32,617 bases of DNA from an uncultured Opitutaceae bacterium (GTDB lineage Bacteria; Verrucomicrobiota; Verrucomicrobiia; Opitutales; Opitutaceae), in the NCBI GenBank assembly GCA_903862595.1, contig CAIOYO010000195.1, forward strand, positions 1-32,617, in the 5' to 3' direction. The stretch's first letter is position 1. The number at the start of each line of letters is the position of its first letter. The translations under genes and the position numbers were made by a program. Below, piece after piece: positions 16,475 to 24,427 of this stretch. Below the pieces are notes generated by a model. The model was not told the origin of the DNA and did no database searches. It saw only the letters and a list, made by a program, of their open reading frames with translations.

Positions 16475-17929
16475 GTGACCGTCATCAGTTCCTCCTACGA
16501 GACCGACTCCACCTTCTTCGACGAGATGTTCGCGGAGGGCACTGCCAACGGGGTGAGACCTCATTACCGCCGTCTGGCGGATCGGCTCGGAGGCCTGCCG
16601 GTGCCCGACTTCGACCAGCGACGGGCCGCGGTCGACTCCGCCTTTCTGCGTCGAGGCGTCACGTTCACGGTCTACAACGACTCCCAAGGCACCGAGCGCA
16701 TCTTCCCGTTCGATCTCATCCCGCGCATCATCCCGAGCTCCGAGTGGCGACGCATCGAGGCCGGCCTCACGCAGCGCCTCCATGCCCTGAATTGCTTTCT
16801 CGACGACATCTACCACGGCCAGAAGGTGCTGAAGGATGGGGTCATCCCGGCAGCACTGATCCTCGGCGCGAAGCATTTCCGTCGTGAGTTCATGAACTTC
16901 AAGGTGCCGCGCGGCATCTATGTCCACGTCTGCGGCACCGATCTGATCCGCGATGCGCAGGGCAACTACCTCGTGCTCGAGGACAATCTGCGGTGCCCGT
17001 CCGGCGCGAGCTACATGATCGAGAACCGCGCCGCGATGCGCCGCGCGTTTCCCCAGTTGTTCGAAAGCTACGGGGTCCGACCGGTCGAAGGCTACGCCGA
17101 GCAGTTGCTCCGCGCGCTTCTCCACCTCGCCCCGGAGCACAAGGAAAACCCCTGCGTGGTCCTGCTCACCCCCGGAGTCCACAACAGCGCCTACTTCGAG
17201 CACTGCTTCCTGGCCCGCCAGATGGGCATCCCGATCGTCGAGGGCCGTGATCTCGTCGTCCGCGAGCGGCGCGTCTACATGCGCACCACGAGCGGGCTGC
17301 AGCCGGTCGATGTGATCTACCGGCGGATTGATGATGATTTTCTCGACCCGACCGTCTTCCGCCCGGATTCGATGCTTGGCGTGCCAGGTCTGGTGAACGC
17401 GTACCGCGCCGGCACGGTCGCGCTCGCCAATTCGATCGGCACCGGCGTCGCCGACGACAAGGTCATCTACGCCTACGTTCCCAAGCTCATCCGCTACTAT
17501 CTCGGCGAAGAGCCCATCCTCCCGAACGTCAACACGTACCTCGCCTCTGAGGTTTCCGACCGGCGCTTCATCCTCGACAACATCGATCGCCTTGTGGTCA
17601 AGGCCGCCAACGAGGCGGGAGGCTACGGGATGCTCATCGGGCCCGCCGCCTCCAAGGAGGAGTGCGCCCGGTTCCGCGCTCAGGTGGCCGCCAATCCTCG
17701 CAACTACATTGCTCAGGATCCGATCATGCTTTCGCGCTCTCCGACGTGGTGCGGCGGGCGACTCGAGGGGCGTCACATCGACCTGCGACCCTACATCCTC
17801 TACGGCGACAAGATCACCGTCACCCCCGGCGGCCTCACTCGTGTCGCGCTGCGCCGCGGCTCCCTCGTGGTGAACTCCTCCCAAGGCGGTGGATCCAAGG
17901 ATACGTGGGTCCTGAAGGGTGACGAATGA
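16475..17929 (+). CDS. Circularly permuted type 2 ATP-grasp protein (DUF404/DUF407)
   Basis: This 484-aa protein belongs to a circularly permuted ATP-grasp family, usually found beside alpha-E and transglutaminase-like genes. ATP-grasp enzymes form amide bonds by activating a carboxylate with ATP; this family is predicted, not proven, to ligate amino acids or peptides. Recognisable segments include [12 protein letters not shown] near the N-terminus, [26 protein letters not shown]-like [44 protein letters not shown]-like [13 protein letters not shown], and [17 protein letters not shown]. The C-terminal region contains [11 protein letters not shown] and ends with [10 protein letters not shown]. 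The start is GTG at 16475 after a CT-rich leader with no Shine-Dalgarno. The TGA stop overlaps the next ATG (ATGA), implying translational coupling with the alpha-E gene. It is probably cytoplasmic, with no signal peptide. Confidence 0.93.
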
Positions 17930-19191
17930 TTCCCCGCCAGCCCATGCCCTCGCCTTCTTCTCCCTCCAGTCGCACCCAGTCCACCCTCATGCTCTCGCGG
18001 GTGGCTCACTCGTTGTACTGGATGAGTCGCTACATTGAACGCGCGGAAAACACCGCTCGACTCCTCGACGTCAATCTCCAGTTCCTCGCCGACTTCCAAG
18101 ACCTCTCGCCCGCCCCGCTGAACTCCTGGGAATCCCTGATCCTCAGTTCCGGCGCGCAAGAGGAGTTCAAGGCCCTGCACGCGGCGGCCGACAGCCACAG
18201 CGTCACCGACTTCCTCGCGTTCGAGCTGCGCAACCCTGGCTCGATCCTGTCCTGCGTCTACGCCGCCCGCGAGAACGCCCGCATGATCCGCGATCAAATC
18301 TCGCTGGAGATGTGGGAAGTGATCAACGAGCTCCACCTCATCCTGAAGTCGACGTCCACGGCCGATGTCTGGCGCAGCGGCCCGCAGGAGTTCTTCAACC
18401 GAATCATCCGTGCGTCGCATCTTTTCCAAGGGCTGACCGACGCCACTTTTCCCCGCAACGAGGGGTGGGAATTCATCCGCTTCGGCAAGATGCTCGAGCG
18501 CGCGGACAAGACGACCCGGATCCTCGACGTGAAATATCACGTGCTCCTCCCGAGTGCCACCGACGTGGGCGGAGCCATCGACACCGCGCAGTGGCAAGCC
18601 GTCCTCCGCTCCGCCTCCGCGCTTGATGCCTACCGACACCACCATGTGCGCGAGGTGCTGCCGTGGAAGGTCGCGGAGTTCCTCATCTTCTCCGACACCT
18701 TCCCGCGTTCGCTGCACTTCTGCACCGCACAGGTCGACGACCTCCTCCGCCGGATCCTCGCGGAGACCGGTGCCCGTCCGCGCTCGAACGCCGCGCGCGC
18801 CTCGCGGCGGCTGCTCGGAGAACTCGAGTCCCTCTCAATCAACGACGTCCTCAAGCGGGGTTTGCATGAATTTCTAGTCGACTGTCAGGCCACTCTCGCC
18901 GCAATCAGCGATGAGGTCGCCGAAACCACCATGTTCTACCCCGCCGAGTCCTCGGTCGAGGACCAGCAGCAACAACAACAGCAGCAGCAGCAACGCAAGG
19001 ACGCCACGCCTCTCGCCGATCCGTTCCGTTCGGATGCTCCACTCGCTCCACCACAGGCCATCCATCTGCTACCTAGCCGCGCCCACTCCCACCCCACTCC
19101 TTGCGCCGCGACCCGGATGCACGTCACATCGCCTCCTGGGCTTCAAGGCCCCTCTCCGGCGGACTGCGGCGCCCAGCTCCCCCGCTCGTAA
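17926..19191 (+). CDS. Alpha-E domain protein (DUF403) with polyglutamine tail
   Basis: This 421-aa protein has an all-helical alpha-E domain from about residue 22 ([22 protein letters not shown] in part) to about 335. Family hallmarks include the [16 protein letters not shown] helix, [12 protein letters not shown] and [19 protein letters not shown]. Its biochemical role is unknown; it is thought to partner with the ATP-grasp protein. The ATG overlaps the upstream stop codon. The family normally ends soon after the helical domain, but here a tract of ten glutamines (347-356) is followed by a 65-residue proline-, alanine- and serine-rich tail. Codon use in the tail is less GC-biased than in the body. 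The tail could be a real extension or the product of a late frameshift. The transglutaminase-like gene begins 30 bases downstream. Confidence 0.9.
18964..18993 (+). repeat. CAG/CAA tract encoding ten glutamines
   Basis: Ten consecutive glutamine codons occur in the order CAG-CAG-CAA-CAA-CAA-CAG-CAG-CAG-CAG-CAA, directly after the alpha-E domain. The mixed codons make it an interrupted trinucleotide repeat, so length changes by slippage would mostly be in frame. R and K follow the run. Confidence 0.95.
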
Positions 19192-19221
19192 TCAAGTCCG
19201 CTCCGACCGCGAAGGCCCCCG

Positions 19222-20163
19222 ATGCACCTGCGCGTCGTCCACCGGACTACGTTCACCTACGCCGGTGAAGCCAAGGAGAGCTTCAACGAGCTTCGACTCC
19301 GACCCGCCGACACCGAAAGCCAGCGCTGCCTCGCGTTCGATCTGCGAATCAGCCCGGCGAGCGAGGCACGCGACTACCGCGACTTCCACGGCAACACCGT
19401 CCACTACTTCGAGGTGCCGGATCCACACACGCAATTGTGCGTGACGACGATCTCCCGCATCGAGACCGTGCCCCTGACCGAGCGTGCACTCGTTCCGGAG
19501 GTCAGCGCCACCGAACTCTCCGCGTCGCCCGAGCACGAAATGCTTGCGGAGTTCCACACGAGCTCCCCCTACGTCCCTCTCGAGGTCGAGATCTGGCGGG
19601 AGGCACAGGATGTGGTCGACGTGGGACGCTCCGATGTCTGGAGCGACGTGCAACGCCTCGGCGAACATGTCCACCGGACGCTCGCCTACCGCCCCAACTC
19701 CACCGGCGTGCACACCCTCGCGACCGATGCCCTGCGCCAACGCTCGGGGGTCTGCCAGGACTTTGCCCACGTCCACCTCGGCCTCTGCCGGAGTCTCGGC
19801 ATTCCCGCGCGCTACGTCAGCGGCTATTTCTTCAACCCCACCCGTCGCCCTCGTGAAAACGAGGCGTCGCACGCGTGGATCGAAGCGTGGCTGCCCGGCG
19901 TCGGCTGGCTGGCCTACGATCCCACGCACGCGCGGCCGGCGGATGATCGCTACGTGCGAGTCGCAGTCGGCCGCGACTACACCGATATCCGCCCGGTCAG
20001 CGGCACGTACCGAGGCGCCCCAACCCGCTCGCTCCGCGTCGATGTCTGCGTGCGCGAGGTCCGCTCCTCGCGCGTCTTTCCACCCGGCGCAGCGCCGACC
20101 GGTGCGTCTCAGGTCGATGCACCCCCGACTGCCTCACCAGCGGCCGAGACCAACCCAGCATAG
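19222..20163 (+). CDS. Transglutaminase-like cysteine enzyme
   Basis: This 313-aa protein has the bacterial transglutaminase-like N-terminal beta domain (HLRVVHRTTFTYAGEA, FNELRLRP) followed by the papain-like transglutaminase core. The catalytic triad is intact: C178 in SGVCQDFAH, H217 in SHAWIEAW and D233 in AYDPTHA. Enzymes with this fold act as proteases, peptide cyclases or amide-transferring enzymes, and the exact reaction here is unknown. The gene belongs to the conserved set with ATP-grasp and alpha-E genes, which suggests processing of a peptide made or modified by them. It starts 30 bases after the alpha-E stop. There is no signal peptide, so it is likely cytoplasmic. The last 40 residues are a proline/alanine-rich tail. 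Confidence 0.94.
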   Translation: MHLRVVHRTTFTYAGEAKESFNELRLRPADTESQRCLAFDLRISPASEARDYRDFHGNTVHYFEVPDPHTQLCVTTISRIETVPLTERALVPEVSATELSASPEHEMLAEFHTSSPYVPLEVEIWREAQDVVDVGRSDVWSDVQRLGEHVHRTLAYRPNSTGVHTLATDALRQRSGVCQDFAHVHLGLCRSLGIPARYVSGYFFNPTRRPRENEASHAWIEAWLPGVGWLAYDPTHARPADDRYVRVAVGRDYTDIRPVSGTYRGAPTRSLRVDVCVREVRSSRVFPPGAAPTGASQVDAPPTASPAAETNPA

Positions 20164-20365: not shown

Positions 20366-21616
20366 ATGAGTCTCCCCGTCGACACCCGTAGCGTCCGCCC
20401 GGCGACGATGCTTCGCCTCGCCGCGCTCATCACCGTCACCGCGCTCGTGGCTCCGCTGATGCCAGGTGCGACGCTGCCCGGATCGACCGGAGCTCCCGCC
20501 GAGATCGCTCGTTTGCAGCGCGGGCTGTCCGCAACGACTCCCGGTCAGGCGGAGTTCGTCCGCGCACCGGACACGACGCTCTACTTCTCACCGCATCTGC
20601 TGCCCGCAGGCACCGAGGCCAGTGACGCCGCCGCGCAGTTGAGCGGGATCCTCGATGATCTCGGCCAACGCTTGAGGGCCGTCGCGTCCGACGAGCGTCA
20701 CCTTGTCCGGCTGACGATCACGCTGGTCGACGAATCAGACCACGCCGCCGCAGCCGACGTCCTCGCCCGGCGATTTCCGGTCCACGCTCCGGCCGTCACT
20801 TGGCAGGGTTCGCCGCTCGCCCGGCCCGGCGCCCGCGTCGCCGTCGAGGCGATCGCCGTCAGCGCGCAACGCCTCGACCTGACGACCCCCACCGCCGATG
20901 GCGGCGCGCTGCTTCCCGCCGGATCACGCATTTTTCTCTCCGGACAAGCCGAACGCGGGTCGGATGTCGCCAGCAGCGTGGCCCTCACCATGGCTTCGCT
21001 CCTGCGTTCCGCCAAGGAACTCGGCGCTGCTCCGGCCGGGGTCGCCCAGATCCGCGTCTTCCTCCAGCCTTTCTCGAGTCGGGACGACGCTCTCGCCCAG
21101 ATCGTTCCGCTGTTTCCCGCCGGGAAGTGCCCGCCGGTCATCGTGACCGAGTGGACCCTCCCCCTGCCGGTGGAAATCGAAATGATCGTAGCCCGTGATC
21201 GCGGCGCCGCGAAGCTGGAAGCACCGCTGACGTTCCCGGTGCTGGCAGGAAAGCCTCGCTCGCCGCGCTTCAGTCATGCGGCGATCGTCGACGCGGGCGT
21301 TCCCCTGCTGTTCCTCAGTGACGTCGAGGCCGGTCCCAACGTGTCACCCACCGAGGAATGGCCGACCATCTTCGCCCGACTCGGACCCACGCTCGGACGG
21401 GCGGGGAGCAGCTTCCGGCTCCTCGTGAAGGCAACCTACCTCCTCGAGGACGGCTCGCCGCGCAACAGCCTGAACGACACTCGAGCAGTCTACTACGATC
21501 CCTTGCGACCACCCGCCGCCTCAGCCGTGGGAGTGCGCAGCGTCGGCATACCCGACCGGGCTGCCTCATTGGACATGATCGCCGTGCCCCGGGATGCGGT
21601 GCCGCTGACCCCATAA
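20366..21616 (+). CDS. Exported protein with three tandem RidA-like (YjgF/YER057c/UK114) domains
   Basis: With the ATG at 20366 this is a 416-aa protein with a signal peptide or membrane anchor at residues 15-36. Three RidA-like folds follow, at about 61-168, 182-277 and 305-408. Each shows the strand-helix pattern of the family, for example LYFSPHLLP, IFLSGQAERG and LFLSDVEAG at equivalent positions. RidA proteins form trimers and hydrolyse reactive enamine/imine intermediates using a conserved arginine. By my hand alignment the equivalent residue is V, I and A in the three domains, so that activity is doubtful. A covalent three-domain chain could mimic the trimer. The frame is open far upstream; 20300 and 20408 are alternative starts. 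It follows the transglutaminase gene after about 200 bases and may or may not be in that operon. Confidence 0.75.
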   Translation: MSLPVDTRSVRPATMLRLAALITVTALVAPLMPGATLPGSTGAPAEIARLQRGLSATTPGQAEFVRAPDTTLYFSPHLLPAGTEASDAAAQLSGILDDLGQRLRAVASDERHLVRLTITLVDESDHAAAADVLARRFPVHAPAVTWQGSPLARPGARVAVEAIAVSAQRLDLTTPTADGGALLPAGSRIFLSGQAERGSDVASSVALTMASLLRSAKELGAAPAGVAQIRVFLQPFSSRDDALAQIVPLFPAGKCPPVIVTEWTLPLPVEIEMIVARDRGAAKLEAPLTFPVLAGKPRSPRFSHAAIVDAGVPLLFLSDVEAGPNVSPTEEWPTIFARLGPTLGRAGSSFRLLVKATYLLEDGSPRNSLNDTRAVYYDPLRPPAASAVGVRSVGIPDRAASLDMIAVPRDAVPLTP

Positions 21617-21740
21617 CGCGGGCGGTCCAAAGAAATTTCATTCCCTCGCGAGCGAACGAGGCTGATCACATTGATCGAGACTGACGCCTTTTGCCTTGGA
21701 GGCGTGGAGCGAACCCAACAACCTTCTCGCACCATTCTCC

Positions 21741-23066
21741 ATGGCCTCCGTCATTGCCCCTTCGGCCCAGCGCCTCGCTCTCCTCGGCGGGACCCGAGTC
21801 GGTGAAGTCACCTACTCGGCCTTCCCCCACTTCTCCGAGAAGGCCATCGCCCGTGTCGGCGATGTCCTCCGGGCCGGCAAGGCGGTCGGACTCGGACGAT
21901 TCCACTCTCCGGAGATCGCCGAGGCGGAGGACGTCGTCTCGCGCTACCACGGCGGCCGCAAGGTCCTCGCCTGCAGTTCGGGTCACGCCGCGCTCCAAGG
22001 GGCGCTCGCGGGACTGGAAGTCTGCTGCGGTGATGAAGTCATCACGACCCCGTACACGTGGGGCGCTTCGACCTCCTGCATCCTGCACCAGACGGCGATC
22101 CCGATCTTCGTGGACGTCGATCCGGACACCGGCCTCATCGATCCGGACGCCGTGGAAGCGGCGATCACGCCCCGGACGAAGGCGATTCTCGCGGTCCACA
22201 TTTTCGGCCAGCCGGCGAACCTGCCCCGTCTCCGCGCGATCGCGGACCGCCGGGGCCTGAAGCTGATCGAGGACGGCAGTCAGGCGCACGGCGCCGAGGT
22301 GGCCGGCCTGCGTGTCGGCAACGTCGGCGATGCCGCCGGTTTCTCGTGCATGGGCGGAAAGGTGCTGCCCACGACCGAGGCCGGGTATCTGGTCACGCCG
22401 GACGAGCGGGTGTTCTGGAAAGCGGCGATGATCGGCCAGCACATGGGCCGCTCGCCGGAAAAGGATTTCCCGGACGATCTGCGCCCGTGGGTCGACTCGC
22501 TCGTCTACACGTACCGCATCACGCCATTGAATGCCGTACTCCTGACGGAACAGTTCGGCCGCATCGACGGTTGGCTGGCCGAACGGCGCCGCCACGCGGA
22601 CCGCTTCCGTGCTGGGCTCGCGAAGTCGGCGTTCCTGCGGATGCCGCGCTACGCGCCCGACGTGAAGCCCGTGTACCACCTGCTGACCATGAACTTCGAC
22701 GCGAAGGCCGCGGGCGTCTCGCGCGACAGCTTCGCCGCCGCGCTCAAGGCGGAGGGCATGTTGGCCTTCGGCTACGTTCCGTCCCCGATCCCGGACTGGG
22801 CGCGCCTCCACTGGCAGAATTACCAAGGACCTCGCGTGTCGTGGCTATCAGCGCTGGAGGCGGCGCAGGTCGACTACCGCAACCTTCCCCTGCCCCACTG
22901 CCGCCATCGCATCGCGAACTCCATCGAGACCCGCTTCGACTTCGTCGATGCCCAGGAGGCTCAAGTCGACCGCATGCTGGAGATCATTGCCAAGGTTGAG
23001 GCCTCCATCGATGACCTGCGCGAGCACGAGCGGCTCCGGGGCCCGGCTACTCCGGCACGGCGTTGA
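21741..23066 (+). CDS. DegT/DnrJ/EryC1/StrS-family PLP aminotransferase
   Basis: This 441-aa PLP enzyme of the DegT/DnrJ/EryC1/StrS family transfers an amino group to or from sugar-like substrates. It shows ACSSGHAALQGAL for phosphate binding, GDEVITTPYTWGAS, IFVDVDPDTGLIDPDAVEAAI, LIEDGSQAHGA (aspartate for the pyridine nitrogen) and the Schiff-base lysine K207 in SCMGGKVLPTTEAG. The lysine context (GGKVL rather than S-K-N-L) resembles the inosose aminotransferase and AHBA-synthase branch. The family is often biosynthetic, yet here it sits with degradative genes. The ATG at 21741 was chosen because the protein then begins shortly before the conserved domain. Its stop TGA overlaps the next ATG by one base, implying coupled translation. 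No Shine-Dalgarno is visible. Confidence 0.92.
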   Translation: MASVIAPSAQRLALLGGTRVGEVTYSAFPHFSEKAIARVGDVLRAGKAVGLGRFHSPEIAEAEDVVSRYHGGRKVLACSSGHAALQGALAGLEVCCGDEVITTPYTWGASTSCILHQTAIPIFVDVDPDTGLIDPDAVEAAITPRTKAILAVHIFGQPANLPRLRAIADRRGLKLIEDGSQAHGAEVAGLRVGNVGDAAGFSCMGGKVLPTTEAGYLVTPDERVFWKAAMIGQHMGRSPEKDFPDDLRPWVDSLVYTYRITPLNAVLLTEQFGRIDGWLAERRRHADRFRAGLAKSAFLRMPRYAPDVKPVYHLLTMNFDAKAAGVSRDSFAAALKAEGMLAFGYVPSPIPDWARLHWQNYQGPRVSWLSALEAAQVDYRNLPLPHCRHRIANSIETRFDFVDAQEAQVDRMLEIIAKVEASIDDLREHERLRGPATPARR

Positions 23067-24427
23067 TGAAAGTCGGCTTCGGACGCAGCGATATCACCCC
23101 GCGCCTCGGGGTGCAGTTGGCGGGCTACGGACCGTACCGGAACCGAGCCGCCGCTGAAATCGTCGCGCCCCTGCATGCGCGCGCGGTCCTGCTGCGCGAC
23201 CGCGCCCGGACCGCACTGATCGTCAGCGTGGAGCTCTGCGGCTTGCCGCGAGAGCTCGACGCCCGGATCCGGGCCGAGGCCGCTTGTGCGGCCGGGGTCG
23301 ACGCGGAAGAGGTGTTTCTCTCGGTCACACACACCCACAGCGCGCCCGCCGTGGGCGGCATGCTGGGATGGGGAGAGGCTGACCAAATGTACGTCGAGAC
23401 GCTGCCGATTCGGGCGGCGGCGGCCGCGGCCCAGGCGCGCGCCATGCTCGCGGATGCGGAGTGGCGCGTCGCCGCGGGACCGTGCGAAGGCATCGCGGTG
23501 AACCGCGAGACCGACGCGGGCTTTGCGATGAACGCAGATCTGGCCGAGCGCCTAGATCCAGCCTGGCGACCGGCCCATCCGGAGCAGACCGACCCAACGG
23601 TCCGGGTGCTCGCGGCCTACGCCAGCGGGCGGCTCATCGGACTGCTGCATCACTTCGCCTGCCATCCGGTCGTGTACGGCGAGAAAACCGCCGCGATCCA
23701 CGGCGACTACGCCGGGATCGCCAGTCTTCGCCTCGAAGCGGCCCATCCCGGAACCGTGGCCCTCTTCCTTCCCGGCGCCCTCGGTGACCTCAACCCGAAG
23801 CTGAACCACCGCAACCCCGCCGAATCCCTCCGCGCTCTGCGGGCCATCGCGCGGTTATATGCCGCAGCCATCCAGCGCTCGCTCCGCGCGGCGCAGCCGC
23901 TCACCTCCCACGAACTCCGCACCCGCCGCACCCGCGCGACCTTCGCACGCCAGCCGTGGACTCGCGCACAGGTGATGCGCCGCATCGCCCAGTTGGAGCA
24001 GGTGTTCCGGCGCGCGGGCATCACCGACTTTCCGCACACCGGCGGCCAGCCCCCCTTGCTGACGCACGGCATGGAGCTGACGCGACTGAACGGCCTGCGC
24101 GCCCTGCTCGCCGGATGGCGAGGCAACCGCGCTCCGAATCCACCCGTCTGCCTACACGGCGTCCGCATCGGCCCCGTCGCCTTGCTCGGGTTCGGGCTCG
24201 AGCTGTACCACAGCCTCCAGCACGACATCGTTACTGCGTCGCCCCATCCCCAGACCTGGCTCGTCAGCCTGGTCGGCGGCATGGGCTACGCGCCCGATGC
24301 CGCAGCGCAGGCTCGCGCCGGCTACGCCGCGGATTTCGTACCGCTCATGTGCGGCGAGATTCCCTACCGACGCATCCACCGCGAGCTCCCCGCGGCTCTC
24401 ATCGGACTCGCCCGGGCTCTCTCCTGA
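23066..24427 (+). CDS. Neutral/alkaline ceramidase-like protein (N-terminal domain only)
   Basis: This 453-aa protein matches the N-terminal catalytic domain of neutral/alkaline non-lysosomal ceramidases, zinc amidases that cleave ceramide in the characterised members. It begins VGFGRSDITPRLG and carries VTHTHSAPAVGG (H89, H91), HHFACHPVVYG and GALGDLNPK, segments where the family places zinc and catalytic residues. It lacks the C-terminal domain of true ceramidases (about 670 aa in Pseudomonas) and has no signal peptide. Genes of this kind are common in Verrucomicrobiota and Planctomycetota, and their substrates are unknown, so a role in lipid cleavage should not be assumed. The ATG overlaps the aminotransferase stop; a TTG one codon upstream is less likely. 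Cleavage of an N-acyl group from an amino sugar is possible but speculative. Confidence 0.88.
   Translation: MKVGFGRSDITPRLGVQLAGYGPYRNRAAAEIVAPLHARAVLLRDRARTALIVSVELCGLPRELDARIRAEAACAAGVDAEEVFLSVTHTHSAPAVGGMLGWGEADQMYVETLPIRAAAAAAQARAMLADAEWRVAAGPCEGIAVNRETDAGFAMNADLAERLDPAWRPAHPEQTDPTVRVLAAYASGRLIGLLHHFACHPVVYGEKTAAIHGDYAGIASLRLEAAHPGTVALFLPGALGDLNPKLNHRNPAESLRALRAIARLYAAAIQRSLRAAQPLTSHELRTRRTRATFARQPWTRAQVMRRIAQLEQVFRRAGITDFPHTGGQPPLLTHGMELTRLNGLRALLAGWRGNRAPNPPVCLHGVRIGPVALLGFGLELYHSLQHDIVTASPHPQTWLVSLVGGMGYAPDAAAQARAGYAADFVPLMCGEIPYRRIHRELPAALIGLARALS

Follow-up and report, generated by a model that had tools for sequence, protein, structure and literature searches.

The triple-Rid gene and its domains

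The DNA analysed here (the window) is one whole contig, 32,617 nucleotides long, of an Opitutaceae genome of 3.34 Mb in 397 contigs, and it carries the only triple-Rid copy of that genome. The open reading frame at positions 20366-21616 of the plus strand reads without a stop through 416 amino acids. The RidA-fold family PF01042 was matched by Pfam in three stretches of the product, scoring 56.5 bits (cut-off 27.3), and the NCBIfam model TIGR00004 matched it weakly (28.8 against 106). The Rid family is ubiquitous, and its fold is normally active as a trimer of separate subunits. Unlike the RidA homotrimer of single domains, triple-Rid has three domains in one chain, as seen with both Pfam and AlphaFold. 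The features of the locus are given below, with sites numbered after E. coli RidA.

20366..21616, plus strand: triple-Rid coding sequence, 416 aa, start possibly at 20408 (reading of the ORF, Pfam, homologues)
20408..20470, plus strand: signal-like hydrophobic N-terminus, residues 15-35 (hydrophobicity rule; pLDDT below 50 at residues 6-42)
20504..20872, plus strand: domain 1, residues 47-169; R105 site V144, E120 site A159, K73 site R115
20879..21208, plus strand: domain 2, residues 172-281; R105 site I259, E120 site E270, E122 site E272, K73 site Q228, and the residues S192-G193-Q194
21173..21181, plus strand: Glu270-Ile271-Glu272 of domain 2, with E270 and E272 in 57 of 57 members
21221..21595, plus strand: domain 3, residues 286-410; R105 site A385, E120 site S401, K73 site K355, S106 site S386
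21741..23066, plus strand: DegT/DnrJ/EryC1-type PLP aminotransferase, next gene downstream (PF01041, 232.5 bits; longest ORF starts at 21696)
23063..24427, plus strand: ceramidase-like protein (PF04734, N-terminal part only, 51.9 bits, cut-off 32.1)

The order of genes after triple-Rid is DegT, ceramidase-like PF04734 and heparinase II/III, and it is alike in two further loci (L041 and L042). On the other side, at 16475-20163, lie three consecutive genes that we take, by eye, to resemble circularly permuted ATP-grasp, alpha-E and transglutaminase genes.

The Met at 20408, rather than position 20366, may be the start of the protein, and its residues 15-35 form the signal-like stretch MLRLAALITVTALVAPLMPGA. 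In the relatives, signals were called with a simple rule for hydrophobicity in place of a trained predictor. A signal-like N-terminus was seen in 32 of 37 members, of which one (L075) lies inside a fusion and was discounted; some of the misses come from the choice of start codon. A similar rule gave 20 of 20 for the Planctomycetota members. The export behind a signal peptide proposed in the initial annotation is thus probable for the window protein and for most of its relatives.

Within the window's family, 21 of 200 genomes carry triple-Rid, and in Planctomycetota 22 of 392 do (E 1e-15). The GTDB contigs yielded 39 loci, mostly from Opitutaceae, with a few from other Verrucomicrobiota, two from Planctomycetota and one from Omnitrophota. 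The closest named homologue, from an Opitutaceae MAG, is 80% identical, and no match to the window protein was found in plasmids by tblastn. A phylum-wide search with the profile A1 (176 of 387 genomes) was rejected as a count of carriers, as nearly every listed match, except the window, had one domain. A tree built from 68 domain sequences, taken from 21 members and five further Rid proteins, placed each domain position in one clade, with support of 99/92, 100/98 and 96/92 for domains 1, 2 and 3, respectively, and therefore one triplication preceded the spread over Verrucomicrobiota and Planctomycetota. For four close pairs, dN/dS was 0.11-0.20 overall and 0.06-0.28 per domain; all three domains are under purifying selection and none is decaying. 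A chance or frame artefact is excluded by these ratios and by the homologues (21/200 genomes, 39 loci, 22/392 genomes).

Catalytic positions in the three domains

The protein was aligned with E. coli RidA (from NC_000913) and with three other PF01042 proteins of its own genome. The position of Arg105 is occupied by V144, I259 (V258 if shifted by one column) and A385, and that of Glu120 by A159, E270 and S401, in domains 1, 2 and 3, respectively. In the first 18 aligned members, the R105 site was hydrophobic in domains 1 and 2 and Ala in domain 3; in the Planctomycetota members it was mostly Ser or Thr in domain 2, and Cys or Val in domain 1. Arg was found at this site in 0 of 37 members in each domain, and in 0 of 57 in each domain of the wider alignment. 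Within three columns of the site it was likewise absent, save for 1 of 35 members at -3 in domain 1. Glu occupied the E120 site in 0/37, 37/37 and 0/37 members (domains 1, 2 and 3), and it was kept in domain 2 alone in 57 of 57. Both observations agree with the initial annotation, whose hand alignment had placed V, I and A at the R105 site and had seen E120 kept only in domain 2. Other positions are also invariant or nearly so: with E270, E272 and T357 were found in 57/57 members, and W263 and K355 in 56/57.

The 57 members, from Verrucomicrobiota, Planctomycetota and one Omnitrophota genome, are the 37 of alignment A3 and 20 from Planctomycetota. Loci left out were, from the 39 loci, L065, L071, L077, L078 and L079 for A3 (partial or frame-broken), and L017, L019, L021 and L022 for A1 (partial). 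From 23 places in Planctomycetota, G705 (a partial match) and a second copy in G780, which was read on its own, were unused, and G550 is the same as L075, which was already in A3.

The loss of Arg is particular to triple-Rid, because Arg at 105 and Glu at 120 are kept in all three further Rid proteins encoded by its own genome. Among the genes of that genome is one (C98) for a single exported Rid protein with the Arg kept (L081:1015-1908), adjoined by an ORF that by eye resembles a class-V-type aminotransferase and has a twin-arginine-like signal (L081:1925-3343).

Tandem fusions of RidA domains were named "3x-RidA" in 2015 (Niehaus; PMC4433059), with EF_0115 of Enterococcus faecalis as an example; within the literature searched, the term was found in that review only. 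Like triple-Rid, these proteins have three RidA domains in tandem and are presumed in the review to form a covalent trimer. They are a subset of the RidA subfamily, and the review's description of them makes no mention of export or of Arg loss in all domains; it is by this description that triple-Rid is set apart from the EF_0115 type. Since tandem triple RidA proteins are already known (PMC4433059), triple-Rid might be an ordinary 3x-RidA in which the missing Arg is of no consequence for function. That is barely credible given the pattern of conservation, as the loss extends to all 57 members, from three phyla, and the sister Rid proteins in the genome have their Arg. The review's Rid4-Rid7 subfamilies also are without R105 and keep the Glu, as in triple-Rid does domain 2 alone, with Rid5 and Rid6 variable at R105; unlike triple-Rid, they are not described there as tandem triples. 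No function is given for the Arg-less Rid members in the review's treatment of them (PMC4433059).

Trimer interface and predicted structure

As described in the account of the Arabidopsis RidA trimer (PMC4960622), a salt bridge from K136 to E182 links the subunits, a further bond joins E182 to S166, and mutations in this network of K136, E182 and S166 weaken the trimer. The carboxylate of pyruvate is bound by R165, and its carbonyl lies near E180 of the neighbouring subunit (PMC4960622). These residues (K136, E182, S166, R165 and E180) were equated by sequence with K73, E122, S106, R105 and E120 of E. coli RidA.

In the 37 members, the K73 site was Arg in 34 and Lys in 3 (domain 1), Gln in 34, His in 2 and Arg in 1 (domain 2), and Lys in 36 and Arg in 1 (domain 3). 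The E122 site was Glu in 20, Asp in 16 and Asn in 1 (domain 1), Glu in all 37 (domain 2), and Asp in 31 and Glu in 6 (domain 3). The S106 site was Thr or Ser in domain 1, hydrophobic in domain 2 and Ser in domain 3. As judged from these alignments, most of the trimer-interface residues are kept in the family, more weakly in domain 2; the network is incomplete because domain 2 lacks both the charge of K73 (Gln or His) and the hydroxyl of S106.

AlphaFold predicted the full chain from 18 sequences with pLDDT 88.6 and pTM 0.86, the low values being confined to about residues 1-42, and the mature part from 37 sequences as a confident compact chain (pLDDT 95.4, pTM 0.94), with the secondary structure repeated three times along the protein. 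The predicted fold (pTM 0.94) and the mostly kept interface residues are consistent with the covalent pseudo-trimer suggested in the initial annotation. The interpretation given there is thus supported in part; its further proposal is that the protein would bind ligands in place of deaminating imines. Single domains were matched to RidA chains by VIA-align with Z 9-11.7. Triple-Rid thus shares with the RidA/YjgF/UK114 imine deaminases the fold and most of the residues of the trimer interface, and it differs from them in having no R105 in any domain, in being a single chain and in being, by its predicted signal, exported.

The best whole-chain matches in Foldseek were to chorismatases and Toblerone-fold hydrolases, at an rmsd of 17-21 A, and therefore no likeness in domain packing is claimed with either. 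The chorismatases (5ag3, 5a3k), which are likewise multi-unit chains, ranked first; VIA-align matched them to the first model with Z 13.1 and an rmsd of 3.9 A over 194 residues, and they were absent among the 50 matches listed for the second model. Over the whole chain the rmsd was 17 A, at a sequence identity of 10-13%. A reading of VIA-align rows (1-4 to 362-367) as an N-terminal strand that completes domain 3 and closes a ring was dropped, as these rows give end points only.

It is very improbable that triple-Rid would be, as AtzD is, a cyclic amide hydrolase of the Toblerone type with a single central site on a pseudo-threefold axis. Foldseek matched it to 5hy2 (E 3.6e-8 over about 400 columns), and the paper on this fold holds AtzD to be three concatenated YjgF units (PMC3758960), as AtzD and barbiturase, like triple-Rid, have three YjgF-like units per chain. 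However, the alignment with 5hy2 had an rmsd of 20 A and a TM of 0.22. The AtzD/barbiturase units are four-stranded, unlike those of triple-Rid, and are described in that paper as having Ser-Lys dyads at the central site (PMC3758960), and of the three domains in the window's lineage only domain 3 has Lys as the usual residue at its K73-equivalent position. A candidate dyad in domain 3, K355-S386, was rejected: both are ordinary RidA residues, K73 and S106 of E. coli RidA, and therefore give no support for AtzD-like chemistry.

Partner genes, fusions and a proposed function

The map of neighbourhoods covered 39 loci, the window and 38 of the 39 found (L077 left out). The recurrent neighbours were TonB receptors in 13 loci (by eye), ceramidase-like proteins in 11, DegT-type enzymes in 9, Gfo/Idh-like proteins in 8 and a mixed DUF7133/ceramidase-like cluster in 7. 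A PF04734 gene was found within 10 kb of triple-Rid in 7 of 20 carrier genomes, against about 0.45 expected. The Gfo gene adjoins triple-Rid in just 8 of the 39 loci and not in most. In Planctomycetota, 17 of 20 regions had neither DegT nor ceramidase-like neighbours.

Three Planctomycetota fusions, which are new here, are the strongest link of triple-Rid to its partners:

L075, 7991-11134: 1048 aa, S9/dienelactone-type hydrolase, Gfo/Idh-like domain and triple-Rid
L162, 731-4942: 1404 aa, triple-Rid, DUF7133 and cytochrome c
L162, 4914-7331: second ORF, 806 aa, overlapping the fusion, Gfo-like (Pfam) and ceramidase-like (BLAST only)
L147, 8575-10581: 669 aa, triple-Rid and esterase

The ORF beside the L075 fusion has DUF7133, HEAT and cytochrome c matches in Pfam, and its start resembles ceramidase-like proteins by eye. 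A ceramidase-like gene lies 2 kb from the L147 fusion, with a Pfam score (24.2 bits) that falls short of the cut-off (32.1), and in L058 and L060 the triple-Rid gene is overlapped or touched by one for DUF7133. A cluster of neighbours in which Gfo and triple-Rid were mixed (C0) was at one point taken as a pure artefact of linkage, which was rejected as part of it is the real fusion in L075. The Gfo/Idh-like proteins of L048, L051, L054, L058, L060, L066, L070 and L075 have IGLDTSH (or IGLDAHA) as the NAD motif, not GxGxxG, and Sec-like signals were seen by eye on those that were read. The same domain was also seen with WD40 repeats fused in front of it (L163:6503-8554).

In the window's family, a Gfo-like gene was present in 21 of 21 carriers against 71 of 179 non-carriers (Fisher 2e-8, phylogeny ignored), and it was present in 4 of 4 other genomes checked. 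In Planctomycetota the counts were 22/22 against 37/370 (Fisher 1.6e-20, phylogeny ignored). As a control in Planctomycetota, PF04734 was found in 22 of 22 carriers and in 16 of 58 sampled non-carriers, and so the lineages to which the carriers belong are rich in such genes; in the same 58, the Gfo-like gene was found in 1. The co-occurrence with Gfo is stronger than that of the control, but it is confounded by lineage and is not proof. Three Opitutaceae loci (L117:3905-9781, L118:3160-9003 and L119:5899-12029) have a conserved operon whose members are an epimerase-like gene, a second family of conserved ORFs, nagA-like and nagB-like genes, the Gfo-like gene and a sugar-isomerase-like gene; the nagA-like match scored 179 bits and did not reach its cut-off (225.65). 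This operon hints at amino-sugar catabolism.

Taken together, the data make it on balance probable that triple-Rid is an exported, repurposed pseudo-trimer with one likely ligand cleft that acts in an exported degradative system. One ancestral triplication gave rise to the single chain now found across Verrucomicrobiota and Planctomycetota. By sequence, the arginine for the substrate carboxylate has been lost in all three domains and most of the subunit-locking residues have been kept. The three clefts would now be unequal, that of domain 2 probably being the working site, with Glu270, the turn Ser192-Gly193-Gln194 and Glu272, and the others structural. The partners in the exported system, as suggested by fusions and neighbours, would be the Gfo/Idh-like protein, the PF04734 hydrolase, the DUF7133-cytochrome c protein and sometimes a DegT-type PLP enzyme. 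Triple-Rid most likely would bind, and then hydrolyse or tautomerise, a labile product of a partner enzyme; this product would have no alpha-carboxylate, and therefore R105 would not be needed.

It is rather unlikely that triple-Rid is still an imine or enamine hydrolase, acting on carboxylate-free imines from exported PLP enzymes or from a dehydrogenase, with Glu270 positioning water. DegT-type genes lie near it in the 9 loci and in two of the 20 Planctomycetota regions, and twin-arginine-like signals were seen on the DegT-type PLP enzymes of L045:1867-3267, L055:3854-5197 and L065:3256-4635 (Verrucomicrobiota) and, in Planctomycetota regions, of L144 (4830-6170), as well as on the L148 neighbour. 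A class III aminotransferase follows triple-Rid in L076, one member is fused to the DUF7133-cytochrome c protein, and Rid genes are described in the family review as clustering with PLP enzymes and amine oxidases (PMC4433059). However, the window's own DegT has no signal, and with three syntenic relatives counted once, the DegT neighbourhood was only weakly above chance (3 seen, 0.77 expected, P 0.04); after this correction, DegT linkage was dropped as the main evidence. Moreover, the review's account of the mutants has R105 as required in plant and Salmonella RidA, with imine hydrolysis abolished in its absence, and Ala at the equivalents of Tyr17 and Glu120 as having little effect there (PMC4433059).

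We give a similarly low probability to a role without catalysis, with triple-Rid as a binding or scaffold module that, in the manner of a periplasmic binding domain, would carry a ligand or dock its partners. The loss of both Arg105 and Glu120 in domains 1 and 3 would fit such a role, as would fusion to three different kinds of partner, which is seen with scaffold domains. The E120, E122, S30, G31 and Q32 positions of domain 2, however, are nearly unchanged, which is beyond the need of a scaffold.

A broader form of the preferred reading, that of a repurposed exported pseudo-trimer, is put forward tentatively. Triple-Rid may be the conserved hydrolase/isomerase core of a catabolic system that PVC bacteria export and that has so far escaped description, its modules being recombined in different fusions. 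In this system, cytoplasmic folds would have been reused with loss of their usual motifs (Arg105; GLDTSH in Gfo), together with ceramidase-like and DUF7133-cytochrome c proteins.

The triple architecture was already known; as far as our searches reach, the exported, Arg-less variant with one site and fused partners is new. The literature searched, which most subscription journals lie outside, gave no account of a triple-Rid that is exported or without Arg. What emerges is one exported, Arg-less Rid protein, conserved in more than one phylum, which gene fusions link to named partner domains, and its function is therefore approachable through those partners. It would offer a natural experiment in which a symmetric enzyme with three sites became one chain with a single site, a course also argued for the Toblerone-fold hydrolases, and it suggests that the Rid fold has been reused for a new extracellular job.
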